24,710 nucleotides of DNA from a virus: the IMG/VR virus record IMGVR_UViG_3300036712_000031, positions 1 through 24,710 of that record. One strand, 5' to 3'. A program made the position numbers and the translations under genes. Each line of letters starts with the position of its first letter. Position 1 is the first letter of the stretch. The notes under the pieces are model-generated. The model did not search any database. It saw only the letters and a list, made by a program, of their open reading frames with translations, and had not been told where the DNA came from. Of the stretch, positions 4,657-21,802 are shown one piece after another.

Positions 4657-6480
4657 TTAATTACTTAATTCCCAGAATGTTTTACTTCCTTCTGTTATTG
4701 TTGGAGCAGGAACTTTTCTAATATAAATATCTCCATTTATATTAAAAATATATTTTGATCCTTCTGTCATGTTTTCAGTATCAGGCAAAGCTAATTCCCA
4801 ATATCCATTTGATCTGGTTGTTGTTAAAAAAAATTCCCTTTCATAAATTATATTATCTTTATATTTAACTTGTTTTTTATTTAGAATTGCCGTAACTGTT
4901 TTATTTTCTTTTGAGCCTGTCTGATAATCACTAATAAAACCGTAAACAATAGTAGTATCTATTGAATCAATATCAATTTCTACAAAATCATATGTAATTG
5001 TAATATCAGTTAAAGTAGGAGATGATATCCCTGTATCTGAATGAAAAAAAACATTTACGGATACATGAGATCCTAATTCAGATTCATTAAAAAAAGTAGA
5101 TAAATTATTTTGTATTTCTGTTAATGTATTAGATTGTGAATAAATTCCATTGCTTACCATCCAGCCACTATTATAATATCTTTCTACATTATCTTTTACA
5201 ATAGTAAAAGTTATATTATCATTTCCAGATTGAGAAAAAGTTGATAAAAATGTTAATAATGCTTCTGTATCAAATGTATCAGTAAAAGATAATTTTGGAT
5301 TTGTAGTTGAATATTGTTCTATTCTCATATTAGCTGTTAATTCAGAAACAGAACTTAAAGTATTTGAATCTGGAAATACTATCGTGAATCTTCCTTCTGT
5401 TTCTTCATCAACAGGCAACGTGTCTGCATTAATATTAAAAGTAATTAAATCTGTTGATTGCGAATAGGAATTATCTGAGACAGCCCAAGTAGAACCATTC
5501 CAGTATAAATTATTTCCAGATTCTCCTATATCTAATAATATTTTTGGAGATCCTATATAAACTAAAGATAAAGAATTAAATAATTTGATAGTTCCATCGC
5601 CTATATATTGCATTTTTGGAAGAATATCTGAAGATGTAACATATTTATATTTAGGAATATCGTCAGATGATGGTGTATAATTAGATGTATGTTGAACAGA
5701 ATCATAAATTACTAAATTATCTATTAAAAAATTAGCATTTCCATTGCCATTTAAATCCTTACCTATTCTTAATAACCCAATATTAGAGCTTCTTATTCCA
5801 GTACCTGTTTGTGTACTTCCCAATTGATTTCCATCAACAAATAATCTAGTTGCACCATTAGTAATATCCCAATTTAAAGAAATTTTATATTTTGTATCCG
5901 TTATAGGACTAAATGACTCAGCAAAAGAAACAATACTTCCGCCAGTAGAATCAGAAATAGCTACAAATAATAATGTACTTTGATGATATATTCTTATTCT
6001 ATTATTAGCATTTCCAGCTGCTTGAACAATTGTAGGTAGATATTGAAAACTTCCTGCTCCTGAATATTTAGGAATCCAGTCAAATTCTATACATCCTTGT
6101 TGTTGAGCATCTGCATTATTATTTGCATCAAAATCAATATATTTATTTTCACTGCCCGATAAATCTAATTGACCAGATGTAATTCCAGCCCCATTATAAG
6201 CAGTTCCTGTTACTACTCCTCCACTCCAATCTTCAAGATTAATATCAGTATTAAAATTAGCACCGCATAATGCATCTATTTGGCTTTTTTGTTCTATTTT
6301 ACTATCTTTAAATTCTACTAAATCTGAATCATAAGTATGTCCTGTATCATTATCAAAATTTTCAGTAAAATTAGTATTAACTTCTTGTAACTTCAATTTA
6401 AAAGTTGATCCTAAAATTTGAATTAAGTTTGAATCATAAGAAGCATTAGACAAAATATTATAAGTATTTATAAGCCCCAT
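4657..6480 (-). CDS. LamG/concanavalin-like domain virion protein (607 aa)
   Basis: A long structural protein, probably exposed on the virion. Residues about 98-262 form a LamG / ConA-like jelly-roll: GCIEFDWIP, then KYKISLNWDITNGATRLFVDG (split by strands) and FLIDNLVIYD, the usual closing strand. Residues about 280-500 contain a duplicated module, with YWNGSTWAVSDNSYSQS near 326-342 and YYNSGWMVSNGIYSQS near 435-450. The C-terminus (about 510-607) resembles a small regulatory-type beta domain ('SNGYWELALPDT'). It lies between the beta-helix protein and the connector genes, so head or neck decoration is more likely than tail fibre, but this is inference. Unlike its neighbours the gene contains no CCTGG/CCAGG site and is poor in GC-rich words, suggesting separate acquisition. 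Only a weak TAAGG lies before the ATG. Confidence 0.75.
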   Translation of the reverse strand: MGLINTYNILSNASYDSNLIQILGSTFKLKLQEVNTNFTENFDNDTGHTYDSDLVEFKDSKIEQKSQIDALCGANFNTDINLEDWSGGVVTGTAYNGAGITSGQLDLSGSENKYIDFDANNNADAQQQGCIEFDWIPKYSGAGSFQYLPTIVQAAGNANNRIRIYHQSTLLFVAISDSTGGSIVSFAESFSPITDTKYKISLNWDITNGATRLFVDGNQLGSTQTGTGIRSSNIGLLRIGKDLNGNGNANFLIDNLVIYDSVQHTSNYTPSSDDIPKYKYVTSSDILPKMQYIGDGTIKLFNSLSLVYIGSPKILLDIGESGNNLYWNGSTWAVSDNSYSQSTDLITFNINADTLPVDEETEGRFTIVFPDSNTLSSVSELTANMRIEQYSTTNPKLSFTDTFDTEALLTFLSTFSQSGNDNITFTIVKDNVERYYNSGWMVSNGIYSQSNTLTEIQNNLSTFFNESELGSHVSVNVFFHSDTGISSPTLTDITITYDFVEIDIDSIDTTIVYGFISDYQTGSKENKTVTAILNKKQVKYKDNIIYEREFFLTTTRSNGYWELALPDTENMTEGSKYIFNINGDIYIRKVPAPTITEGSKTFWELSN

Positions 6481-6488
6481 AAATTACC

Positions 6489-6629
6489 TTATTTTATTTT
6501 TTGAGATTTTTTCTCTTTTTCTTCGTCAGTATCTTTTGTTTTGATACTTACTTTTTTTTCAATTTTATTAGGTTTATTTTGAACCATTTGTTTAGATTCT
6601 TCAAAAAATATTTTTTCTTTTTCGTTCAT
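6489..6629 (-). CDS. Very small Lys/Glu-rich protein (46 aa)
   Basis: A short gene found by reading the gap between the beta-helix and LamG genes. The ATG at 6629 is preceded by AAGGAGT with 8 nt spacing, one of the better ribosome binding sites in the window. The frame is open for 46 codons to TAA at 6489. The product begins MNEKEKIFFEESKQMV and continues as an almost entirely charged Lys/Glu/Asp chain, so it is probably helical or disordered. It ends 8 nt before the LamG gene start. No family is recognised. It may be a small chaperone or peptide of the decoration module, from position only. Confidence 0.65.
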   Translation of the reverse strand: MNEKEKIFFEESKQMVQNKPNKIEKKVSIKTKDTDEEKEKKSQKIK

Positions 6630-6661
6630 AAATTTATACTCCTTATATTAAGTCATTTGAT

Positions 6662-7558
6662 TTATGCTAATGTTGTATTGTCACCAGCTGCGGACCCCGC
6701 ATCTGAAACGGCTGGTTTTGTCCTATTCTCAGTAATAATAATATCTGTAGCCTGTCCATTAACAATCCCCGTAGATGACCCAATCCCTTTATTTCTAGAT
6801 ATTTCTGATTCTGTGCAGACTGCCGTTGCTGCAATAGCTATCAAATTAGTACAATTTGTCAATTTGTTATTTCTGATAATAGAATTGTTGAACCATGCTC
6901 CCGCTGCGACATCAATACCTGTAATACATCCATTAATTATATTATTCTCTATAATAGAATTTTTTATTTCGCAACTTATACCTATAGTAACGGTTTTACT
7001 GTTATCGCCTTTTATCCAGCAATCATGAATATGCACCGCGTCGCTTGTATCTGCAAGCAACATAATTGGTATGGCATGAGCAGAATTAAAACAAATATTA
7101 GCTATTTCAAGACCTGATCCGGTAAATCCTAATACGGCAGTACTGGCTATTGCATCATCATAATTTACAACGACTCCATAATCTCCATTTGATAATGGAG
7201 AAATTCCAATCAAATGAATATTATATCCAGAAAATAATAGCTGTTCATTGTATTGTCCTGGACCAACAAACACCCATTTATGATGATCTTTAGAACTATC
7301 AATTGTAGTGGTTCCGGATTGATATCTTGCTTTATTTAGAGCATATTGTATAGTTTTGAAAGCTGTTTGCCAACTTAGTCCATCATTTGTATTACTTCCG
7401 TTTATTCCATCTACATAATATTTATCTCCGAATGGAAACCCTACGTCTCTCATTAATGCATATCTGATTTTTTCACCTAACTGCGAATTTTGATTGCCTG
7501 GCATTAATAGACTGATTTCTTGCGCTTCCGCTTCGGACAAATAATCTACATAATTCAT
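6662..7558 (-). CDS. Right-handed beta-helix (pectin-lyase-like) protein (298 aa)
   Basis: The start of the fold is recognisable at residues about 47-75: YYVDGINGSNTNDGLSW followed by AFKTIQYALN, the classic DUF1565 / pectate-lyase-like opening. It is followed by short strand repeats rich in Asn/Ile (IIENNIINGCITGI, SIIRNNKLTNCTN, SEISRNKGIG, IIITENR) that form beta-helix coils. The N-terminal 45 residues are predicted helical (EAEAQEISLLM) and may anchor the protein to the shell. Encoded directly after the capsid protein and an 87-aa protein, it is a candidate head spike, decoration or glycan-binding protein; no catalytic residues can be assigned. The start overlaps the upstream TGA (ATGA) and has GAGAGG 7 nt upstream. 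Confidence 0.8.
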   Translation of the reverse strand: MNYVDYLSEAEAQEISLLMPGNQNSQLGEKIRYALMRDVGFPFGDKYYVDGINGSNTNDGLSWQTAFKTIQYALNKARYQSGTTTIDSSKDHHKWVFVGPGQYNEQLLFSGYNIHLIGISPLSNGDYGVVVNYDDAIASTAVLGFTGSGLEIANICFNSAHAIPIMLLADTSDAVHIHDCWIKGDNSKTVTIGISCEIKNSIIENNIINGCITGIDVAAGAWFNNSIIRNNKLTNCTNLIAIAATAVCTESEISRNKGIGSSTGIVNGQATDIIITENRTKPAVSDAGSAAGDNTTLA

Positions 7559-7818
7559 TTTTTTACCTCTCTTTCATAAAAAAGAATTAAACCATTTTCA
7601 ATCAATTTATTTTTTAAATCTTCATCATAAGTTTTAAAAATCCCTTTTTTAAAATTAATTGTTTTTTCATCAATTAAATATTCTCCTGTGTATTCTTCAT
7701 CATGAAAAATACAATATTCAATTTTAGGCTTTTTTTCTTTTTCAGGTTCAATATTAATAATATTGAGAGAAGGCTTTTTATTTGCCTTCTCTCTGTATTC
7801 TTTTTGTGTGTATAGCAT
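7555..7818 (-). CDS. Small protein following the major capsid gene (87 aa)
   Basis: Unrecognised. The N-terminal 30 residues are Lys/Glu-rich (KEYREKANKKPSL). Residues 36-87 look like a compact alpha/beta unit: YCIFHDEEYTGEYL, then INFKKGIFKTYDEDLKN and a closing strand ILFYERE. Genes at this position in HK97-type phages are often small capsid-associated or decoration-linked proteins, which is the only basis for a role. The ATG at 7818 shares its A with the capsid TAA (TAATG), so it is translationally coupled to the capsid gene and likely made in stoichiometric amounts. Confidence 0.65.
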   Translation of the reverse strand: MLYTQKEYREKANKKPSLNIINIEPEKEKKPKIEYCIFHDEEYTGEYLIDEKTINFKKGIFKTYDEDLKNKLIENGLILFYEREVKK

Positions 7819-9260
7819 TAGTATGTTCTTTTTCCTCTATGCCAAACAGAAGTACCATCATAAGAAGGAGCTAACGCTGGATAAGACTTAACAAGAAATT
7901 GCATGTAATCATCAACCTCAGCAAGCTCTTTTGTTGTAACAAGCCCGCCAAAATTAGAACCTCCACGATTTGTATAGGGAACTTTTCCTAATCCTTGGAT
8001 CGGGTCCAGGTCCCATAATGCGACAATTTCAGGGACATCATGTCCAGAGTCCTGCTCAAATGAAATATCGCTTTGCATATAACTTGGAACTGTATTTCCA
8101 GAAATAGCAAGGATCAAATTTGCAGGCGCACTAATCGTTGGATTTGCACTGTTTGGATCGGTTGAAAAAGTTACAGTGGTAGTATTTGCGGTTATGTTTC
8201 CAGTCGCATCATAATTGAAACCGCTAATTTCCGCAACTAATGTTTCCGCGTGTTGAGTAGTCGAACAATAGATTTTAAATCGATATGCATCTGTTTCCGC
8301 GGTCCAGGTTAGAGTTATTGTATCATTACTAGAAGTCGTAACATTGGAAGCGTGAGCTAATGACTCACCGTCCTGGGTAACTTTTGCAACTTTGAAATAA
8401 TAAGTAGCATCTGTTAATCCGCTTCCTGCTCCTGCTGCTGATGGTGTCACAGTTCCCATAGTGTTTGTGTTCCTGGTTTGTGCACTTGGCACAATAGGAA
8501 TATCACGGTAAGAAAATAACCTCCATCCTCCTGGGATTTCTACAATACTTAATCCCTTCCCAACTGACTCCTGATTGATTCTGACATTAGTCAATAATCG
8601 TGAACAATGACTTAACATTTCAGGAGACATCAAAAAAGCTCTTCTATGAGAAGACCCTCCCTTTCTGTCTGAAATATCAATCATATCATCAAGAAATTTT
8701 AAACTAGTTGGGGTCTGCCCGAATCTAGCTTCATTTTTCCGATTATTGTTTCCTGCATTTCCGATGAAATTATCAAGTCCGCCATATTCATATTTATTTC
8801 CGTTTGGATTTCCATACAGAAAATAATTGATTAAATCGTAAATATGGCTTGTGATATGATTTTCCATTTCATAAGCTGCCGCGTCAATATTTTCCTCGGA
8901 TGTATCCTGGAGAAAATTTGTTACGGCTCCTTTTCGCTTTACAATTTTTAATGTTACTGTATCTCTGACAGTAGTACTATTTCGTGTTGGGGTAGTAGAG
9001 CTTTCTCCCTGGGCCCCTCCGATTCCTGGCAATGCAGTCAAACGATTAAACTCATGCGTTTTACCAGCAATTTTTTTAAACCCTGGCTCTAAAATAGCAA
9101 TTTCAGGAGACATTCTAATAATTGTATTAGTAATCTCTTTTTCAAGGTTTTCAGGGATTAACGCTCCGCCCACACCTGTCGCGGATGTTAAAGCCTTTTG
9201 TAATAAGCTTTTATTTTCATCCGCATATTTATTGAATCCTTTTATTGTAAATTCAGGCAT
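7818..9260 (-). CDS. Major capsid protein, HK97 fold with FN3-like insertion (480 aa)
   Basis: Forms the icosahedral head shell. Residues 28-60 (TGVGGALIPENLEKEI and on) match the segment that opens mature HK97-type capsid proteins. Residues 95-145 contain the strand pair and spine-helix region (KRKGAVTNFLQDTSEENID then AAAYEMENHI), and NYFLYGNPNG / GGLDNFIG follow as in Phage_capsid proteins. Residues about 268-378 are an insertion resembling one FN3/Ig-like module (TYYFKVAKVTQDGES and TLTWTAETDAYRFKIYCS). Removing it leaves about 370 aa, the normal core size. No long N-terminal delta domain is present, consistent with a separate scaffold gene upstream. The start has AAAGGAG 9 nt upstream. 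Confidence 0.9.
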   Translation of the reverse strand: MPEFTIKGFNKYADENKSLLQKALTSATGVGGALIPENLEKEITNTIIRMSPEIAILEPGFKKIAGKTHEFNRLTALPGIGGAQGESSTTPTRNSTTVRDTVTLKIVKRKGAVTNFLQDTSEENIDAAAYEMENHITSHIYDLINYFLYGNPNGNKYEYGGLDNFIGNAGNNNRKNEARFGQTPTSLKFLDDMIDISDRKGGSSHRRAFLMSPEMLSHCSRLLTNVRINQESVGKGLSIVEIPGGWRLFSYRDIPIVPSAQTRNTNTMGTVTPSAAGAGSGLTDATYYFKVAKVTQDGESLAHASNVTTSSNDTITLTWTAETDAYRFKIYCSTTQHAETLVAEISGFNYDATGNITANTTTVTFSTDPNSANPTISAPANLILAISGNTVPSYMQSDISFEQDSGHDVPEIVALWDLDPIQGLGKVPYTNRGGSNFGGLVTTKELAEVDDYMQFLVKSYPALAPSYDGTSVWHRGKRTY

Positions 9261-9293
9261 TTTAAAAACTCCTTTATTGATTTTTTAGATCAA

Positions 9294-9971
9294 TTATTTT
9301 TTTACCATAGCTTTTAAAATTGAAGGATTTTGAAAAGTTTTTCGAGCTATTTCTCTTGGTGTCTGATAAGTATTGCTGGTATCAGGTTTCACCTGTAAAG
9401 CTTTTGTAATCAATTCTAAGGCATTGTTGAAATCATTTTGATTCCTTAAACCTTTTTGAACCTGGTTGTTTTTATTATTATCAATTTGATAACTTTTTTC
9501 AACTTGTTCAACAACTCCCAATCCTTCTAAAATATTTTTCACAGCTATTTCTTGATCATTAACTTTCTCAGTCAATGATTTAGTCACTTTGACAATTTCA
9601 TTCAAAGTATTTAAAACCTGTGTATCTGGATTAGATACAGATTTCTGAAGACTTTGATTGTTTTTTTGAAGTATTTTAAGTAACGTTTTCGCTACGTCTT
9701 TTTCATTAATATCACCTTGTGGCGTTTGTGGGTCTGTTATTCTGGTATCAGAATCATCATTTGCCGTAGCACCGTCAGAAGGTGTTGTTTCAAGTCCTTT
9801 TTCTATCATTTCGTCATCTTCCGGTGTTCCGGTCCCTTTTTCTGCATCCGGTTGCTGATCTGGCAACGGATTATCTGGCTGCATAGCTGGTCCAGCTTCA
9901 GAAGAAATCATTTGTTGTAATTGACTAATTAATGAATTTAAATCTTGAATTAATGTTTGAAATTCCATCAT
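9294..9971 (-). CDS. Putative capsid scaffolding protein (225 aa)
   Basis: Located between the prohead protease and the major capsid gene, the expected place for a scaffold. The protein is hydrophilic. It has an N-terminal helix (residues 3-24), a disordered acidic Pro/Asp/Gln-rich stretch (about 25-85), then long amphipathic helices (about 90-170, including VAKTLLKILQKNN and EIVKVTKSLTEKVNDQE) and a basic C-terminus (ARKTFQNPSILKAMVKK). This is the usual composition of scaffolds and of head proteins removed by the protease. The start ATG at 9971 overlaps the protease TGA (ATGA) and has AAGGAGT 8 nt upstream; a second in-frame ATG follows at 9968. There is no sequence signature specific enough to exclude another internal head protein. 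Confidence 0.65.
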   Translation of the reverse strand: MMEFQTLIQDLNSLISQLQQMISSEAGPAMQPDNPLPDQQPDAEKGTGTPEDDEMIEKGLETTPSDGATANDDSDTRITDPQTPQGDINEKDVAKTLLKILQKNNQSLQKSVSNPDTQVLNTLNEIVKVTKSLTEKVNDQEIAVKNILEGLGVVEQVEKSYQIDNNKNNQVQKGLRNQNDFNNALELITKALQVKPDTSNTYQTPREIARKTFQNPSILKAMVKK

Positions 9972-10969
9972 TGTTTTTTACTCCTTTTTGATGTTTTATT
10001 GATATCATTTTGTTTAATTGAATTTTTAATATCAATAATTTTTGATGCAATGTCTTTTAAGACTCTTTGCATTTTTTCAGAATTTTCCTGTTTAACAAGA
10101 ATGGCCGGAATTTCTATATTAGTTTCGTTTTGAAACAGACCAACCGAATTTAATAATAAGTTAATCATTATGTCCTGATATTCGGAAAATATAACTTCTA
10201 ATCTTTCTTTTTTATTATTCTGAACATCAGACATAATCTCTTCAATTGTCTCTTCAAATGCATTATCAATTTCAAACTTTTTTTTAAAGTATTCGTCTTT
10301 CATTTCTTTTTCTTGAACAATTGTTCTCAACTTATTTTGAAGACTTTTTTTAATTTTTTCTTCTGTCCATGGGGGTAACACATCTAAAGCTTTGTATATT
10401 CCATTTGCGATAGAATCAGGATAAGCTGGGCGCGGACATAATATAACACCGTCCAGATCAATTTTACAGATTTTTCTTTTTCCGTCATATGATTGAGATA
10501 TAATCCCATTATTTGGTATTATCCCTTCAATTGAAAATCCTTTTTGAATTGGTTTATCATATGGAGGCAACCCGTTTAATTGTTTCCAGAGTGTGTCAAT
10601 TGTAGCTAATTTTTGAGAATAGATACTCGGGTCCAGATCATTTTGATCATACAACTCGTATGTTGTAACCCAGTTGTTATTATTATCAATCTCAGCTTTT
10701 ATTAGCTTCCCGATATCTTCACTGGCTCTAATATCATGCACATCTGGATATAACAAAATCATTCCTTCATTAGCTTGCCGCATAAAATCATCAATGGCTT
10801 CTTTTGTAATAATTTCACCATGAAGATCCGTTTTGATCCCCGATGAGATACCTTTTAGATATCTTTTTTTTATATTACTGCCCTCAATTGATTTTTCAAA
10901 GACATGCAATTTATTTTCAAATTGGAAAGGATGAAAATGTAAGGATATTTTTTTGACTTTTTCTTCCAT
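9968..10969 (-). CDS. Prohead maturation protease, S78/XkdF-like (about 333 aa)
   Basis: Serine protease that processes scaffold and head proteins during capsid maturation. Numbered from the TTG at 10972 (subtract one for the ATG start), residues 38-110 show the family core RYLKGISSGIKTDLHGE, a catalytic-type His in YPDVHD (H79) and a strand WVTTYELYD. The nucleophile motif is GFSIEG (S147), followed by DLDGVILCPRPAYP (about 172-185). The order His, Ser and a downstream acidic strand is that of herpes/HK97-type prohead proteases. Residues about 200-334 are a Lys/Glu-rich helical extension. The ATG at 10969 is preferred over the in-frame TTG because AAAGG lies 7 nt upstream of it. It is the first gene of the head operon, about 72 nt downstream of the predicted transcription start. 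Confidence 0.82.
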   Translation of the reverse strand: MEEKVKKISLHFHPFQFENKLHVFEKSIEGSNIKKRYLKGISSGIKTDLHGEIITKEAIDDFMRQANEGMILLYPDVHDIRASEDIGKLIKAEIDNNNNWVTTYELYDQNDLDPSIYSQKLATIDTLWKQLNGLPPYDKPIQKGFSIEGIIPNNGIISQSYDGKRKICKIDLDGVILCPRPAYPDSIANGIYKALDVLPPWTEEKIKKSLQNKLRTIVQEKEMKDEYFKKKFEIDNAFEETIEEIMSDVQNNKKERLEVIFSEYQDIMINLLLNSVGLFQNETNIEIPAILVKQENSEKMQRVLKDIASKIIDIKNSIKQNDINKTSKRSKKQ

Positions 10970-10997
10970 CAATTAACCTTTAAAAAAAATTATGTCC

Positions 10998-11041
10998 TGT
11001 TTTAGAACACGAATAGAACATGAATAGAACTATCATAGAAC
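10998..11041 (-). repeat. Four tandem 11-bp repeats (GTTCTA core), operator or leader element
   Basis: On the coding strand the units are GTTCTATGATA, GTTCTATTCAT, GTTCTATTCGT and GTTCTAAAACA, starting at 11041, 11030, 11019 and 11008. The GTTCTA core recurs with exactly 11-bp spacing four times, one helical turn per unit. The array begins about 7 bp downstream of the -10 hexamer, so it covers the predicted +1 to about +44. This suits cooperative binding on one DNA face, as with the 11-bp direct repeats bound by PhoB/OmpR-type regulators, or an RNA-binding site in the leader. Function is inferred. Confidence 0.7.
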
Positions 11042-11047
11042 AGTTTT

Positions 11048-11076
11048 ATTATATCTAATATGGTTAATTGTGTCTA
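11048..11076 (-). promoter_or_regulatory. Sigma70-type promoter of the head operon
   Basis: On the minus strand TAGACA (11071-11076, five of six matches to TTGACA) and a perfect TATAAT (11048-11053) are separated by exactly 17 bp. The predicted start is near 11041, giving a leader of about 72 nt before the protease ATG. It lies just downstream of a terminator, and the phased GTTCTA array begins right at the predicted start site. Confidence 0.75.
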
Positions 11077-11091
11077 TTATTTTTTTTATAA

Positions 11092-11116
11092 CAAAAAAAC
11101 CCCCTGGGAGGGGGTT
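11092..11116 (-). terminator. Rho-independent terminator (distal of a tandem pair)
   Basis: A 7-bp stem, AACCCCC/GGGGGTT, has a 5-nt loop (11098-11116). On the minus strand it is followed directly by a T run (11093-11097). It is the second terminator downstream of the MuF gene and sits immediately before the head-operon promoter. Confidence 0.8.
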
Positions 11117-11194
11117 ATATCAGATAGAAAATAAAATTTTGTCAATTTAATTATATCCTAAAAAAATTATTTTTCAATATTTTTTTTTATTTTT

Positions 11195-11231
11195 AAAAAC
11201 CCTTTCAACGGGGAAGGAATATTGAAAGGGT
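11195..11231 (-). terminator. Rho-independent terminator (proximal of a tandem pair)
   Basis: A perfect 10-bp stem, ACCCTTTCAA/TTGAAAGGGT (11199-11208 with 11222-11231), encloses a 13-nt loop. On the minus strand it runs into TTTTT. It lies 57 nt after the MuF stop codon and is backed up by the second terminator about 80 nt further on. Confidence 0.72.
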
Positions 11232-11287
11232 CTGGAAATTTGGTGATTGTAAGGATATATAAAGGTTAGTTAAATTGTAACATTTTG

Positions 11288-12100
11288 TCAAATACTTTTT
11301 GCAATGTATCTTAATTCACAATTACATCCAATTATTTCAGCTATACCGCCTGCAGGATCATGGGGTCTGGACATTCTAATTGTTTTTCCTGTTTTTTTCC
11401 ATTGCCCTTTTATTTTTTTATACTCAGGAAATTCAAAGAAGTCATAAAATCCTATTATTTTTTTATTGATATAATTATGTGATCTTCTAGGTTCTTTTGA
11501 TTGAGAAATATTTTGTATCCATTGCTTTTTCATTTCAATTTTCTTTTTGTTATTAAACATAAAAGTTTCAACATATTTTTCCCTGATCATATTAACATTT
11601 GATCTTACTTCAGTTACCGCAATATTTCTAATATTAGAGGGTACTCCATATCTAGGATCTGTTTTTTGATAATTGACAAATACATCTTTTACTTTACTTT
11701 TCATTTTTCTTATTATTTCCGGTCTTAACCTTCCACGATATCGGGTGCCTTCTTTTTCAAAATCTTGTATTGATTCCCTTAAAGCAACATTTAAATGATT
11801 TCTTAATGTCTGGGTAATCATTCGACCGCTTTCAGCTGCCTTAATAGAAAATACCCTTTTGTTTGGAATAATTGTTTTATACTCAGGAAAAGTCAAAGTT
11901 ATTGGCCGTTTTGTTTTTCTATCAATTATTTTTTCTGTCTCTTTTTTCCAGGTCCTATCAGAGATTTTAAATATTTGTGTTGTGATAGCTTCAGTATTAT
12001 CGGCTAAAATATCATTTATTACTTGCTGATATTTTTCATTTTTAATATTAAATTTCCCATATTTATCACGAAGTCTTTTTATTGATATTCTTCTTGCCAT
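11288..12100 (-). CDS. MuF-like minor head morphogenesis protein (270 aa)
   Basis: A minor head protein of the Mu gpF / SPP1 gp7 family, associated with the portal and injected DNA. The C-terminal MuF signature is clear: W194, then EPRRSHNY (residues 203-210), and finally PHDPAGG...IIGCNCELRY (246-265), matching the family 'W....d..tR..H..l.G ... P.dp..ga.e.i.CrC' pattern. The N-terminal 190 residues are basic and helical. The start is supported by AAGGA 7 nt upstream. A terminator-like hairpin lies just before that ribosome binding site and two strong terminators follow the stop, so expression may be separately tuned. It is the last gene of its transcription unit. Confidence 0.82.
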   Translation of the reverse strand: MARRISIKRLRDKYGKFNIKNEKYQQVINDILADNTEAITTQIFKISDRTWKKETEKIIDRKTKRPITLTFPEYKTIIPNKRVFSIKAAESGRMITQTLRNHLNVALRESIQDFEKEGTRYRGRLRPEIIRKMKSKVKDVFVNYQKTDPRYGVPSNIRNIAVTEVRSNVNMIREKYVETFMFNNKKKIEMKKQWIQNISQSKEPRRSHNYINKKIIGFYDFFEFPEYKKIKGQWKKTGKTIRMSRPHDPAGGIAEIIGCNCELRYIAKSI

Positions 12101-12111
12101 TTTTAATCCTT

Positions 12112-12143
12112 AAAAAAATAGGGACCCTGCTTTAAGGCCCCTA
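12112..12143 (-). terminator. Possible intra-operon terminator or attenuator before the MuF gene
   Basis: On the minus strand an imperfect stem, TAGGG plus GGCC/CC pairs against CCCTA (12119-12123 with 12139-12143), is followed by seven T's (12112-12118). It is then followed at once by the AAGGA site of the MuF gene. No convincing promoter separates it from the gene, so partial readthrough (attenuation) is the simplest reading. Confidence 0.55.
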
Positions 12144-12157
12144 TAATCAGGAAGTCT

Positions 12158-12174
12158 GACCAATGACATTGATC
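12158..12174. repeat. 17-bp dyad GATCAATGTCATTGGTC
   Basis: Arms CAATG/CATTG flank a single central base, extended outward by one mismatch and matching end bases. The 1-nt spacer rules out a hairpin, so if functional it is a protein-binding DNA site. It lies 15 bp upstream (in transcription) of the putative attenuator before the MuF gene. No promoter hexamers at proper spacing were seen. Confidence 0.35.
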
Positions 12175-12210
12175 GTATCTCTTATATAATATTCTAACTA
12201 AGTTAAATTT

Positions 12211-12402
12211 TTAAACTATTGTTTCATTAAATAAATCCTCTATTTCTTTATTTAATTCAAATTGTGTTTTATTTCTATTGTTATCTATAATTTTATCAAT
12301 TTTATCAAATAGAATGTCAAAAAAAGCAATTAAATCAAGTTCCATGGGTGCGGATATTTTTTCAATTTGTGATTGAGTCAATTTATTTTGATCAATTGCC
12401 AT
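12211..12402 (-). CDS. Small acidic helical protein (63 aa)
   Basis: Unrecognised. The protein is short and helical: residues 20-40 form an amphipathic or hydrophobic helix (ELDLIAFFDILFDKIDKII), followed by a charged helix (TQFELNKEIEDLFNE). There are no cysteines and no membrane signal strong enough to call. Its ATG overlaps the end of the 72-aa gene by 11 nt, and only a weak GAAAGA lies upstream, so translation may depend on coupling. It lies between the portal/72-aa pair and the MuF gene, suggesting a role in the portal-head module, from context only. Confidence 0.6.
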   Translation of the reverse strand: MAIDQNKLTQSQIEKISAPMELDLIAFFDILFDKIDKIIDNNRNKTQFELNKEIEDLFNETIV

Positions 12403-12610
12403 AATTATCTTTCAAAAAATTAGACATTTCTTTTACTGATTTTTTGACATTATCAATGATTTCTTTTTCTGCTTTTTTTGTATTATTCCATATTCCATAA
12501 CATTGACCAAGGGCTTGATTTTGATTTTTACCGTCATTCATTGCAATTTTAACACACCTACTGATAAAATCATTTTTATTTTCTCCTGCCTTCGGTTTAC
12601 ATTCTGGCAT
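12392..12610 (-). CDS. Conserved small phage protein with F-x-x-R-C ... Q-A-x-x-x-C-Y-x-x-W motif (72 aa)
   Basis: The N-terminal 42 residues match a motif found widely in phage head modules, often as a free peptide or fused to protease or portal proteins: P-x(7)-E-x-x-x-D-F-I-S-R-C (C19), then NQALGQCYGIW (C37, W41). Its molecular function is not established. The C-terminal part (KKAEKEIIDNVKKSVKEM) is a charged helix. AGGAG 8 nt upstream supports the ATG at 12610. It follows the portal gene by 13 nt and overlaps the 63-aa gene. The motif match is from memory of the family, not a search. Confidence 0.7.
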   Translation of the reverse strand: MPECKPKAGENKNDFISRCVKIAMNDGKNQNQALGQCYGIWNNTKKAEKEIIDNVKKSVKEMSNFLKDNYGN

Positions 12611-12623
12611 TTTTTAACTCCTA

Positions 12624-14213
12624 TTATTTATTTTGACTAACAAAATTAAAAGGATTTATATTACTGCCATCCGGTCTACTTTCCATTGCTGCCCCAGGGG
12701 GATAATTGTATTCTTCTTTATCAAAAGGCATTTCATTTAATTCGTTTATTTTAACTTCATTAGTTGCATATAATCCGGTACTCATTTTTAATTTAAGCAT
12801 TTCTAATGTTTCCCTTTCAGATTTTGTCATTTCAAATTCAAATGAATAATTAAGACCATATCGAAAAGGAGTAATATCCATATTAGCGACATTTTCAAAT
12901 TGTCCTAAAATTGGAGCAATTCCTTTACCCTGTTCAATTTCTTGCTGCGTTTCACTGGTTGACCTTCCCGAGGTATCACCTGACCCCGTCAAATTGATTT
13001 CCATGTTACTCATATTAAAAACAAGTGCCACGTCTTCCCTGATATCTCTCTGTCTTTGTGATTGTATACCCATAGTATTTTCTTTGCTTAAATCAACCAC
13101 GGTTACCTCATTTCCAGAAAAAGTCATAATACCGCCTTTTACTGGATGATTTATTTTTTCTTCAATTCTTTTTTGATCATTAGGATCTATATTAACTTTT
13201 AAATCTTTGTCTGGATCTCCAAAAGGACTATTATCATTTATAATTATCATTTTTTCTGGGAATTTTGTACCGTCTGCCTGTTCAGCCATAAGATTGTCAA
13301 ACAATAGACTTTCAGTTATTTTATTTAACAATGCCTCAATCGGGATTACTCCATAACTTCTCATTGAAGTAGGTATATACTGAGAATAACTAATTTCATC
13401 AGGAAAAAATATTTGTGGCTGGTCACCGGATATAACTTGAAAATATATAGCTTCTGAACTTACATATTTATCTCGGAAAGGAAAAGTAGTCCCCCCGGGC
13501 AGAATATAAATATTATCAATTTTATTATCACGGACCTGTTTATAAATTGTCGCAGTACTATGCAACATTAGATCTTGAACCCATTGTTTGATAAAATCTT
13601 GCCATTTTTCATTCCTGTTAGGAGTCATAAACCAATCTTTTATTTCATCACATTTATCTATTTTTTCAAATCTTATTCTTTTACGCCATCTAACAAGAGA
13701 TTTGTCAAAGTTAGATAGATCCGGTAAAATATCAGTAAGTCTTTTTCTAATTTTTGTTAAAATAAATCCAGCTGCAACTTGATATCTAATGTCACTATAA
13801 TTTTTATACTCATTATAAAGAGAATGCATGTCTTTCATTAATTCATACATTCGATCCTCTTCTTTTTTATCAGATACAATATTAAAATTAAGTCCTGATA
13901 TTCTATTCATTCTTGAAGTTATTATTCCCAGGACCGGAGCACATAATTGAAATATTCTAAATCGATCCTCAGGAGTTATATAAAAATATGGATTATCTGT
14001 TTTAGTGACAATGGTCTGCATTTTTTTATCGAGTCCGGTCAAATTTCTTAATGAAGAAATCGTCATCACTCGATAACCGCGACCATTATGTCTATTGATT
14101 ATAGAACTGGGGACCCCTTGGGGGATATCAACCCCTTGTTGATAGATAGGCTGATGAACTAGAGATTTATTAATTTGCTTTTGTAAAATTTTCTTTTTGT
14201 GTCTTTTCTTCAT
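12624..14213 (-). CDS. Portal protein (529 aa)
   Basis: Forms the dodecameric DNA channel at the head vertex and the docking site for the terminase. Recognised by the whole-protein pattern of phage portals: wing residues around 85-110 (RIFQLCAPVLGIITSRMNRISG), a strand region with a DNIYILPGGTTFPF segment and YGVIPIEALLNKI (the usual 'G.SPie.a' helix). Later comes a C-terminal stem/clip stretch with FNMSNMEINLTGSGDTSGRS followed by TSETQQE, typical of portals. The basic N-terminus (KKRHKKKILQKQ) overlaps the 94-aa gene by 44 nt. GAGG touches the ATG, so the upstream AGAG or coupling probably sets initiation. An unusual feature is that eight small genes separate it from the large terminase. 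Confidence 0.82.
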   Translation of the reverse strand: MKKRHKKKILQKQINKSLVHQPIYQQGVDIPQGVPSSIINRHNGRGYRVMTISSLRNLTGLDKKMQTIVTKTDNPYFYITPEDRFRIFQLCAPVLGIITSRMNRISGLNFNIVSDKKEEDRMYELMKDMHSLYNEYKNYSDIRYQVAAGFILTKIRKRLTDILPDLSNFDKSLVRWRKRIRFEKIDKCDEIKDWFMTPNRNEKWQDFIKQWVQDLMLHSTATIYKQVRDNKIDNIYILPGGTTFPFRDKYVSSEAIYFQVISGDQPQIFFPDEISYSQYIPTSMRSYGVIPIEALLNKITESLLFDNLMAEQADGTKFPEKMIIINDNSPFGDPDKDLKVNIDPNDQKRIEEKINHPVKGGIMTFSGNEVTVVDLSKENTMGIQSQRQRDIREDVALVFNMSNMEINLTGSGDTSGRSTSETQQEIEQGKGIAPILGQFENVANMDITPFRYGLNYSFEFEMTKSERETLEMLKLKMSTGLYATNEVKINELNEMPFDKEEYNYPPGAAMESRPDGSNINPFNFVSQNK

Positions 14214-14454
14214 CCTCTAACTCTGTCATTCTCTTAATCAATAATGTAGACTCATCAATCTTATTATAAATGATATCTCGTATTTTCTCTAGTGTTTTTT
14301 TTGCAGTTAAACCATCTTGAAAATAACTTTTTATAATTTCATTATGTATTTCCTGCAGAACATCAACATTATATTTCATTGCTAATACGGTAACTTCATT
14401 TCTAAAGTTTTCTTCTGATATTTCTACAATCTTTATTTTATTTTTTCTTCCCAT
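14170..14454 (-). CDS. Helical protein overlapping the portal gene (94 aa)
   Basis: Unrecognised. It is an entirely helical, charged protein, with residues 15-45 (FRNEVTVLAMKYNVDVLQE) and 50-75 (LTAKKTLEKIRDIIYNKI) as the main helices. Its last 15 codons overlap the portal start by 44 nt, the longest same-strand overlap in the window, which suggests coupled synthesis with the portal. AAGGA lies 9 nt upstream of its ATG. By position it is the last gene of the small-gene islet and might act with the portal or terminase; this is inference. Confidence 0.62.
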   Translation of the reverse strand: MGRKNKIKIVEISEENFRNEVTVLAMKYNVDVLQEIHNEIIKSYFQDGLTAKKTLEKIRDIIYNKIDESTLLIKRMTELEDEEKTQKENFTKAN

Positions 14455-14483
14455 GAACTAAAATCCTTCCCATAACAATCCTT

Positions 14484-14807
14484 TCATTTTTCTAACTCCC
14501 AACCAATAGAATAATCAATAGAATATTTTTCTTTTCCATCATAACATTTTATACATTCACTTTTATTTTTATAAAAATGTTTACAATTCTCACAGCACTT
14601 CATTTTTTCTATTTGTTGTTTTAACTGTTTGTTCTCTTTATTCAAATCTTCAATTTCTACATTAAGCGTCAAATTTTCAAAATCAATATTGTCAAATTCT
14701 GATTTTAATTCTTCATTCTCTTTTTCAAGATTAAATATTGATTCCATAACTTTATCCATTCCAAGTTTTAATATTCCTTTTTCGCCTATTTCTGCACTCA
14801 ATTTCAT
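14484..14807 (-). CDS. Coiled-coil protein with C-terminal zinc-knuckle (107 aa)
   Basis: Residues about 25-70 are a continuous coiled coil (LEKENEELKSEFDN, EIEDLNKENKQLKQQIEKM). It is followed by a compact metal-binding motif CCENCKHFY...ECIKCYDG (C71/C72, C75, H77, C85, C88). The C-terminus (SIGWELEK) resembles the 'W' endings of many small phage zinc proteins. This coiled-coil-plus-Cys layout is common in phage accessory genes but has no firm function. It may be a dimeric nucleic-acid or protein-binding adaptor. AGGAG 9 nt upstream supports the start. Confidence 0.68.
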   Translation of the reverse strand: MKLSAEIGEKGILKLGMDKVMESIFNLEKENEELKSEFDNIDFENLTLNVEIEDLNKENKQLKQQIEKMKCCENCKHFYKNKSECIKCYDGKEKYSIDYSIGWELEK

Positions 14808-14820
14808 TATTCTTTACTCC

Positions 14821-15345
14821 TTATTTAATTTTTCCATGAGCTAAAATCTTTTCCAAATCAATCAAACTTTTTTCAGACAATTTTAACGCAAAGTCCGGTT
14901 TATTTTTGATATACCATTTTATTGGATCATTTTTAAATTGTTTTGACATGGCCCTCAAATCACAGGCCATTTGTTTTATGTATTTTATCGGCATATTATG
15001 CCAGTTTCGTTTTGTCATATCATAGACATCTAGTCTAATTTTCCATTTTTTATGACCTGGGTGATGTTTATTTCTATTCTGATGTTTTTCCCAGGATTTT
15101 TCATATGCTTTCTTTGCATCCCTGGAATAATCAATTGTTTCATCATATCCATATTCATAATTAGCCCATTTTTCATAATAATCTTTTCCATATTTCCCGT
15201 AAAACCAGTTAGCATATGGAAAAAACTCATCCGGCAAAAACTTACTGAAATCGTGTGTGAATGCATGAAGATAGAGTCCCATTTTCCAGCATTCAATAAA
15301 GACATAATATTTATGTCTTAAAATATAAAAAAAATATTTAATCAT
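14821..15345 (-). CDS. DUF5662 family protein (174 aa), possible metal-dependent enzyme
   Basis: The family pattern is visible: an N-terminal H-K pair in ILRHKYYVFIECWKMG, then HDFSKFLPDEF (residues 31-41, with H31, D32 and K35), a YANWF segment, and HQNRNKHHPGH (88-98). Further on is NMPIKYIKQMACDLRAM (117-133, conserved acidic helix). The His/Asp clusters suggest a metal-bound active site of HD-like character, but no activity is established for the family. It occurs in many phages as an accessory gene. The start is preceded by GGAG with about 10 nt spacing and overlaps the upstream gene by 8 nt. Confidence 0.75.
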   Translation of the reverse strand: MIKYFFYILRHKYYVFIECWKMGLYLHAFTHDFSKFLPDEFFPYANWFYGKYGKDYYEKWANYEYGYDETIDYSRDAKKAYEKSWEKHQNRNKHHPGHKKWKIRLDVYDMTKRNWHNMPIKYIKQMACDLRAMSKQFKNDPIKWYIKNKPDFALKLSEKSLIDLEKILAHGKIK

Positions 15346-15613
15346 CTTTTTTTTTCTCCTTAACGTGAAATTGTCTATTTATCGTAAGAAATAATTCTTT
15401 TTTTAAAAAATTATTAAATTCTTCGATTAAATTTTTGTCACATCTATAACAAACCATGAATTCAACTTGTGAAAGGTTTTTTGTGATTTCTTCTGGTTTT
15501 TTTCTTAAATTAGATTCTAATGTATAATTATCAAATGAATAATATAAAATTCTTATTAACAATTGATCTTTTTTGAATTCTTTTTCACATATATCACAAA
15601 AGTATTTAATCAT
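15338..15613 (-). CDS. Small four-cysteine zinc-ribbon-like protein (91 aa)
   Basis: Two CxxC pairs separated by about 45 residues (C6/C9 in YFCDICEKEF and C55/C58 in MVCYRCDKNL) suggest a zinc ribbon. The rest is a charged helix (NLIEEFNNFLKKE) and a Lys-rich tail. The ATG at 15613 is chosen over an upstream in-frame GTG at 15628 because GAGGG precedes the ATG by 8 nt and the GTG has no site. It sits in the islet between terminase and portal and overlaps the DUF5662 gene. No specific function is recognised. Confidence 0.65.
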   Translation of the reverse strand: MIKYFCDICEKEFKKDQLLIRILYYSFDNYTLESNLRKKPEEITKNLSQVEFMVCYRCDKNLIEEFNNFLKKELFLTINRQFHVKEKKKDD

Positions 15614-15657
15614 CTTCTTTTCCCTCACTTTTTAAATAAAATATGTCAACTATTTTT

Positions 15658-16047
15658 TTAATTTCCATTTTTATTCTCACTTTCATTTATTTCAAAACAT
15701 TTTAAAATAGATTTATATTTTGCTTCTCTTCTTAATTCTTTAATTTTATTTTTTAATTCTTTATCATCATATTTTCTTATATATGATTGCAATAATTGTC
15801 TTTTTGCAGTTAAATAATAATCAAAAAAATCTATCTCATTTTGATAAAAAAATTCTTCTAATAACCCGAATAAAAATTCATTAGGAATTATAATTTTTAA
15901 ACCACAATTATTTATACTTAATCCATAATCAGGGTAAAAAGTAATATTGTTATAATATTCATAAACTGGTAAAAAATCTGAAATAAAATTATTCCAAGTT
16001 TTTGAATAATTTTGTGTAATTTTTTCAATCAATTTTTCTGTATTCAT
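15658..16047 (-). CDS. Hypothetical protein (129 aa)
   Basis: No family is recognised. The N-terminal half contains aromatic-rich strands (YEYYNNITFYPDYGLS, NNCGLKIIIP) and the C-terminal half two helices, the second basic (KELKNKIKELRREAKYKSI). AAAGGG 7 nt upstream of the ATG makes it a convincing gene. It lies in the small-gene islet, 26 nt after the HTH-candidate gene. The sequence is markedly AT-rich even for this window. Confidence 0.62.
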   Translation of the reverse strand: MNTEKLIEKITQNYSKTWNNFISDFLPVYEYYNNITFYPDYGLSINNCGLKIIIPNEFLFGLLEEFFYQNEIDFFDYYLTAKRQLLQSYIRKYDDKELKNKIKELRREAKYKSILKCFEINESENKNGN

Positions 16048-17285: not shown

Positions 17286-17347
17286 TTTAATTTTCCTTTT
17301 ATTCTTTCTTCTAATATTTCACAGGCTTTTATTTTTGTCGCTTCCAT
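17282..17347 (-). CDS. 21-aa leader ORF at the head of the islet operon
   Basis: Translated on the minus strand from an ATG at 17347 with AAGGGG 6 nt upstream, it reads MEATKIKACEILEERIKGKL plus N. It stops at a TGA that overlaps the TTG of the 174-aa gene by 4 nt. It begins about 20 nt after the promoter's -10, so it is the first thing translated. It may be a real micro-protein or a coupling leader that makes initiation at the TTG efficient. Confidence 0.5.
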   Translation of the reverse strand: MEATKIKACEILEERIKGKLN

Positions 17348-17367
17348 AGCTTACCCCTTTTTATTTT

Positions 17368-17396
17368 ATTATAACATATGTTAACTTTTTAGTAAA
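17368..17396 (-). promoter_or_regulatory. Promoter of the small-gene/portal unit, with embedded palindrome
   Basis: On the minus strand TTTACT (17391-17396, four of six matches) and a perfect TATAAT (17368-17373) are 17 bp apart. A perfect 12-bp palindrome TAACATATGTTA (17372-17383) occupies the spacer and overlaps the -10, which is where a repressor would block RNA polymerase. The promoter follows directly after the terL terminator. Confidence 0.65.
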
Positions 17397-17403
17397 CAAA
17401 AAT

Positions 17404-17440
17404 AAAAAAAATCCTGTTTTATTGACAATAAAACAGGATT
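17404..17440 (-). terminator. Rho-independent terminator after the large terminase gene
   Basis: A perfect 14-bp stem, AATCCTGTTTTATT with AATAAAACAGGATT (17410-17423 and 17427-17440), has a 3-nt loop. On the minus strand it is followed by a run of T's (17404-17410), and a shorter T run on the other side could make it partly bidirectional. It ends the TerS/TerL transcription unit. Confidence 0.85.
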
Positions 17441-17476
17441 TTAAGTGAGTGATGAAATATACAATTACTAAATTAT

Positions 17477-21634: not shown

Positions 21635-21802
21635 TTATTTTAAAAAATTTTTAATCTTTTCTGAATCCATGACTAATTGTCTGGTAGCTGCACTTAATGA
21701 AATATAATTTTCTTCTGAAAACTTTTTAATTAAATTAAAGACTTCCGGCGGTAAAGTTATTGTTACGCTTTTATATTTGTCTTCTTTTAGTTTTTTTCTC
21801 AT
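21635..21802 (-). CDS. Ribbon-helix-helix (CopG/Arc-type) regulator (55 aa)
   Basis: A missed small gene, found by reading the minus strand. The product starts MRKKLKEDKYKSVTITLP, followed by residues 18-46 with LPPEVFNLIKKFSEEN, then SLSAATRQLVMDS. This is the beta-strand (KSVTITLP), helix and helix of the RHH fold, near the standard 45-60 residue size. AAAGG lies 5 nt upstream of the ATG. It is the first gene after a promoter that carries a perfect 10-bp inverted repeat over its -35 and -10, so autorepression is likely. Its targets could also include other phage promoters. Confidence in the fold is good; the regulatory role is inference. Confidence 0.78.
   Translation of the reverse strand: MRKKLKEDKYKSVTITLPPEVFNLIKKFSEENYISLSAATRQLVMDSEKIKNFLK

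Follow-up and report, generated by a model that had tools for sequence, protein, structure and literature searches.

A near-consensus promoter and a candidate four-site operator ahead of the head-protease gene in an uncultured tailed phage

The window, that is, the whole stretch of DNA analyzed here, is a 24,710-base virus record from IMG/VR with a G+C content of 28.6%, and nearly all of its genes lie on the minus strand. It encodes the small and large terminases, the portal, the head-morphogenesis protein and the major head protein, and it comes from the genome of an uncultured tailed phage that is distant kin of Leptospira phages. The nearest named phages, Leptospira biflexa LE3 and LE4, share 44% identity in the capsid and 38% in the protease. 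Because several relatives are records of 47–58 kb, this record may be an incomplete genome. We searched for close relatives through the protease, through the capsid in genomes and through a small ribbon-helix-helix (RHH) protein, and found none; the capsid search of genomes matched two MAGs only, one from a Clostridia bacterium and one from a Treponema. By protease, the closest relatives are L004/L145 (55% identity) and L144 (50%), and no relative that we found exceeds ~63% identity in the capsid, the value for L144. The 333-aa putative protease itself returned no match in PHROGs or Pfam searches. Elsewhere in the window, we noticed a 46-aa open frame (6489–6629) that is absent from the gene list, lies between genes and has a good ribosome-binding site, and a strong hairpin followed by T7 (12118–12144; −16.2 kcal/mol) just upstream of the Shine-Dalgarno sequence of the head-morphogenesis gene.

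The gap between the head-morphogenesis gene and the protease gene is 318 bp long (Table 1). Along the direction of transcription it contains a terminator-like hairpin (T1), a promoter-like site (P1), a second terminator-like hairpin (T2), the promoter P2, an array of GTTCTA repeats, a weak hairpin with eight T, the AAAGG sequence and the protease ATG, which lies at 10969–10967 with a TTG in frame at 10972. T1 and T2, placed just upstream, would stop read-through and leave P2 as the source of the head-gene mRNA. We also considered the T1-P1 and T2-P2 modules as the products of a duplication and set this aside as marginal, as 17 of 1000 shuffles scored equally well. Another terminator-then-promoter module lies after the terminase gene at 17286–17476, where a 16-bp stem is followed by TTTACT-17-TATAAT and then by a 21-codon open frame; it resembles the arrangement in the protease gap but carries no array.

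Table 1 Features of the head-morphogenesis/protease gap and associated genes
Feature	Position	Strand	Basis
T1, intrinsic-terminator-like hairpin (CCCTTTCAA / TTGAAAGGG, then TTTTT) after the head-morphogenesis gene	11200..11230	-	fold -15.2 kcal/mol
P1, second promoter-like site TTGAAA-16-TATAAT, adjoining T2 upstream	11150..11177	-	11/12 consensus, pattern match only
T2, strong terminator-like hairpin AACCCCCTCCCAGGGGGTT + TTTTT	11098..11116	-	fold -12.5 kcal/mol
P2, promoter TAGACA-17-TATAAT	11048..11076	-	sequence; promoters at the same junction in relatives
Four GTTCTA units, predicted +1 to +39	11003..11041	-	sequence
Weak hairpin GUGUUCU-AAAAC-AGGACAU from the fourth unit, then AA + U8 (10989-10982)	10992..11010	-	fold -5.5 kcal/mol
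Probable Shine-Dalgarno sequence AAAGG of the protease gene	10977..10981	-	sequence
333-aa gene directly after the leader, named prohead protease in the first-pass annotation	9968..10969	-	gene order before scaffold and capsid
Major head protein, same transcription unit, downstream of the leader	7818..9260	-	phrog_212, E 6e-14
55-aa RHH protein, nearest solved relative P22 Arc repressor, candidate binder	21635..21802	-	sequence and model

On the minus strand, TAGACA at 11076–11071, a 17-bp spacer and TATAAT at 11053–11048 can be read directly, as the first-pass annotation had described. P2 therefore matches the sigma-70-type consensus at 11 of 12 positions, with a spacer of 17 bp that falls within the 16–18 bp range. 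At 29% G+C such a match alone is weak evidence, since 63 promoter-like sites were seen where 56 were expected; two promoters of this quality (11/12) lie on the minus strand within 6000–16000, and the array starts at the predicted start of one of them. Stronger evidence came from the relatives. We fetched 71 related loci by protease alignment and scanned 200 bases upstream of the protease match in 62 of them. A promoter of at least 11/12 was present in 12 of the 62 leaders versus 7 of 1240 shuffled leaders, and at a threshold of at least 10/12 the counts were 21/62 versus 64/1240. Nearby gene-internal controls gave 0/62 and 0/61 at the higher threshold and 1/62 and 1/61 at the lower one. Sigma-70-type promoters are thus conserved in position before homologous protease genes, and by these counts a promoter directly before the head-protease gene is a recurrent trait of the group. 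Because near-consensus promoters are enriched at the same junction in relatives, P2 is probably genuine, as had been proposed for a promoter ahead of the protease, scaffold and capsid genes. Within the set L144–L215, near-consensus promoters before the protease recur, for example, in L154, L192, L209, L210 and L215. If the transcription start is taken six to eight bases past the −10 element, it is predicted to fall at about G11041, which is the first base of the array, and the four sites would then occupy +1 to +39.

The array itself consists of four GTTCTA hexamers on the minus strand, at 11041–11036, 11030–11025, 11019–11014 and 11008–11003, and the uniform spacing of 11/11/11 claimed for it is confirmed; on the plus strand it reads as one TAGAAC per 11 bp. 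The first-pass annotation had the array begin at the predicted transcription start and end about 28 nt before the protease start codon. The former holds, while the gap to the ATG is 33 nt. The four units (GTTCTATGATA, GTTCTATTCAT, GTTCTATTCGT and GTTCTAAAACA) have cores that are identical at 6/6 positions and linkers that are nearly unrelated. When the window was searched for hexamers of at least three different letters in four exact copies at any period from 7 to 30, only this array was returned, and simulated sequences contained such an array in 0 of 60 cases under a first-order and 0 of 60 under a third-order Markov model. The pattern GTTCTAN5GTTCTA, with 0 or 1 mismatch, has no second occurrence in the 24.7 kb. 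In a comparison of neighbouring units, every mismatch fell within the same five linker columns (P ~2e-4, assuming mismatches spread evenly over the 11-bp units, with the block taken as observed and all 11 cyclic placements allowed). Conservation is thus higher in the hexamer than in the linkers. With perfect cores and differing linkers, the array is therefore not simply a decayed tandem repeat, and its uniqueness in the window and linker-confined mismatches favor the original impression of phased protein-binding sites. At 11 bp versus 10.5 bp per helical turn, the sites would drift by ~17 degrees per unit and 51 degrees over the array, which counts against that impression.

Conservation of the repeats in related phages, on which the earlier proposal had been staked, was not found: a hexamer, whatever its sequence, in three copies at a period of 9–13 occurs in 0 of 69 homologous leaders, and the leaders of the closest relatives, L004/L145 and L144, differ from that of the window. 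Since the repeats are missing in 69/69 leaders, the array is not a conserved head-operon feature, and with the array absent from every relative examined there is no evolutionary evidence for its function. The missing conservation does not show that the array is functionless in this phage, and the comparison covers relatives of up to ~63% capsid identity. Across 849 kb of family loci we found no four-copy hexamer array with a period of 10–12, and 21 whole records held just scattered one-mismatch pairs that did not exceed the reversed control. The junction is a variable spot in general. In L144, two tRNA genes (L144:1794-1946) lie inside the head-morphogenesis/protease gap, and the gap of other relatives holds small open frames or nothing.

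We then considered GTTCTA at 11-bp spacing as a widespread phage iteron and rejected it, as viral contigs showed no enrichment over control patterns. Three phased copies occurred in 21 of 2.9 million viral contigs, mostly as plain tandem repeats in unrelated phages; the controls were more frequent, with the reversed hexamer in 74 contigs and a 10-bp spacing in 33. The motif is not a common phage element. An array beside TATAAT was found in 20 contigs, with mostly unrelated contexts. A podovirus-like pair, L218 and L220, was likewise discarded as a source of array relatives, being of a different phage type; these two share TGTTCT in intergenic 11-bp pairs (L218:361-440; L220:7138-7220, minus strand) upstream of late genes, which may be an operator or an origin in that unrelated phage.

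Taken together, the array is real, well placed, statistically clear and seen once, and it is most likely an ordinary multi-site operator. In its full form, this interpretation makes P2 a late promoter whose operator is specific to this lineage and offers four 6-bp sites to a cooperatively binding protein; we see the case for it as evenly balanced. A position past the −10 element, over +1 to +39, would suit a repressor, and activation from there is unlikely. The protein would bind cooperatively, one unit per helical turn and roughly on one face of the DNA, and from there it would stop RNA polymerase from forming an open complex at P2 or from leaving the promoter. Transcription of the protease, scaffold, capsid and tail genes would stay low until the protein disappears, is diluted or is titrated away. 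Protein binding, repression and a phage-encoded binder are what we infer here.

Several known systems resemble this arrangement in part. The Apl protein of phage 186, a promoter repressor, acts on 6-bp operators in direct repeats 10–11 bp apart, which it binds highly cooperatively (PMC7498355). The array shares with the 186 sites the 6-bp direct repeats one helical turn apart in several copies, and it fits the Apl/excisionase-type pattern of at least three 6-bp direct repeats spaced by 10–11 bp (PMC7498355). However, its core differs, and in phage 186 the sites are located at attP and in the region separating pR from pL. Among the scanned part of the window's proteins, from a record that may be a fragment, no Apl-, Cox- or Xis-like (excisionase) protein was recognized. 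In the RelB operator relO, four 6-bp repeats are bound by RHH dimers on one DNA face (PMC2812701). The array also has four 6-bp repeats, but relO tolerates no spacing between its palindromic half-sites and has a toxin as co-repressor. The array also recalls BldC, which assembles head-to-tail into filaments whose bound molecules are one DNA turn apart (as described in PMC11963761); BldC is a Streptomyces regulator, and its repeats at whiI are 9 bp long.

The window offers one named candidate for the binder, the RHH protein singled out in the first-pass annotation, which is indeed present at 21802–21635 and has an Arc-like sequence. Phages commonly encode RHH proteins. Among solved proteins, the nearest to it are variants of Arc, with matches to 1b28 (E 0.0017) and the permuted Arc 1u9p (E 8e-5). 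The structural model is modest (mean pLDDT 78.7) and its structural matches are weak (best E 0.11), with Arc ranked first; the phage thus encodes an Arc-like RHH protein, with weak fold matches. P22 Arc recognizes a 21-bp operator with a TAGA box as a dimer of dimers; the ribbons enter neighboring major grooves and contact six adjacent base pairs (PMC12645479). The plus-strand TAGAAC of the array likewise holds TAGA, and on sequence grounds these sites could lie in adjacent major grooves, although TAGA is common in AT-rich DNA. In contrast to the single 21-bp operator of Arc, the array has four direct sites, and the ribbon residues differ: the base-contacting Gln9/Asn11/Arg13 of Arc align with Ser/Thr/Thr in the window protein. 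In the Arc operator, the known half-sites are inverted. The region upstream of the RHH gene has no GTTCTA-type site. The 127-aa protein, a second candidate, gave a model of low confidence (mean pLDDT 63.9), for which none of the structural matches was significant. In 21 records, matches to the RHH and 127-aa proteins were weak (E 0.009 in one, 6e-5 and 3e-4 in two), and their co-occurrence is uninformative because the array has one example only. The 55-aa Arc-like protein is thus the best named candidate, while its specific pairing with the array, though coherent and suggestive, is rather doubtful. The complete scenario, in which a phage Arc-like RHH protein represses the late structural operon of the phage by binding four TAGAAC boxes over the start, is improbable; we know of no late-gene timing switch by an Arc-like RHH protein described for this phage group.

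The foremost alternative to an operator is that the array is a neutral or structural repeat, a tandem duplication of a short stretch of AT-rich intergenic DNA that is read by no regulator and has drifted only in its linkers by chance. The lack of conservation in relatives favors this reading, short 11-bp repeats occur in unrelated phages without GTTCTA being favored among them, and the junction is variable, as the tRNA genes of L144 and the small or absent open frames elsewhere illustrate. The confinement of all mismatches to the linkers, the position of the array exactly at a promoter start and the lack of a comparable array anywhere else in the window speak against it, and we regard this origin as unlikely.

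Control at the level of RNA is quite unlikely. The array would be transcribed if the start is near 11041, so that GUUCUA repeats in the 5' untranslated region could be repeated sites for an RNA-binding protein or alternative partners of AGGACA. In the pairing version, AGGACA would close the weak hairpin before U8 and the Shine-Dalgarno sequence and thereby tune termination or translation. Pairing with AGGACA is possible for 4/4 units (−4.8 to −7.0 kcal/mol), and with the fourth it gives the hairpin followed by U8. However, this hairpin is weak at −5.5 kcal/mol, shuffled sequences fold as well as the complete leader (z 0.43), RNA does not need strict 11-nt spacing, and the leader has no Rfam match at gathering score, with sub-threshold matches that look like chance. 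Among the relatives, a leader (GTTCACGCGCTAACCGCGTGCCGAGG...; L162:2940-3060, L166:4790-4920, L167:4860-4980) is highly conserved between L162, L166 and L167 and ends in a strong terminator-like hairpin and T-run just before the protease, and RNA control at this junction is therefore possible in the group. That leader, also without an Rfam match at gathering score, is possibly an attenuator or structured leader RNA. A CAG..ACC..CCTG leader hairpin common to five relatives was dropped as too weak (4 pairs, covariation term 0).

The first-pass annotation had drawn an analogy to PhoB/OmpR-type regulators, which use direct repeats ~11 bp apart, but activation of P2 through the array by such a host response regulator is very improbable: activator sites of this type lie upstream of or overlap the −35 element, whereas the array lies downstream of the −10 element at predicted +1 to +39, and a near-consensus promoter needs no activator. 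Least credible is control by a leader peptide from the 18-codon open frame across the array (11036-10980, MIVLFMFYSCSKTGHNFF), which is present but begins 5 nt past the predicted 5' end without a ribosome-binding site and, with the repeats in different frames, has no repeated codons.

If the array is not an operator, it is an ordinary, well-placed repeat set. Aside from the array, the comparison points to a sigma-70-type promoter of their own that relatives of LE3 and LE4 often carry directly ahead of the head-protease gene. Should the array prove to be an operator, one binding experiment could reveal its cognate protein, and the structural operon of this phage would be under a dedicated repressor at its own promoter.
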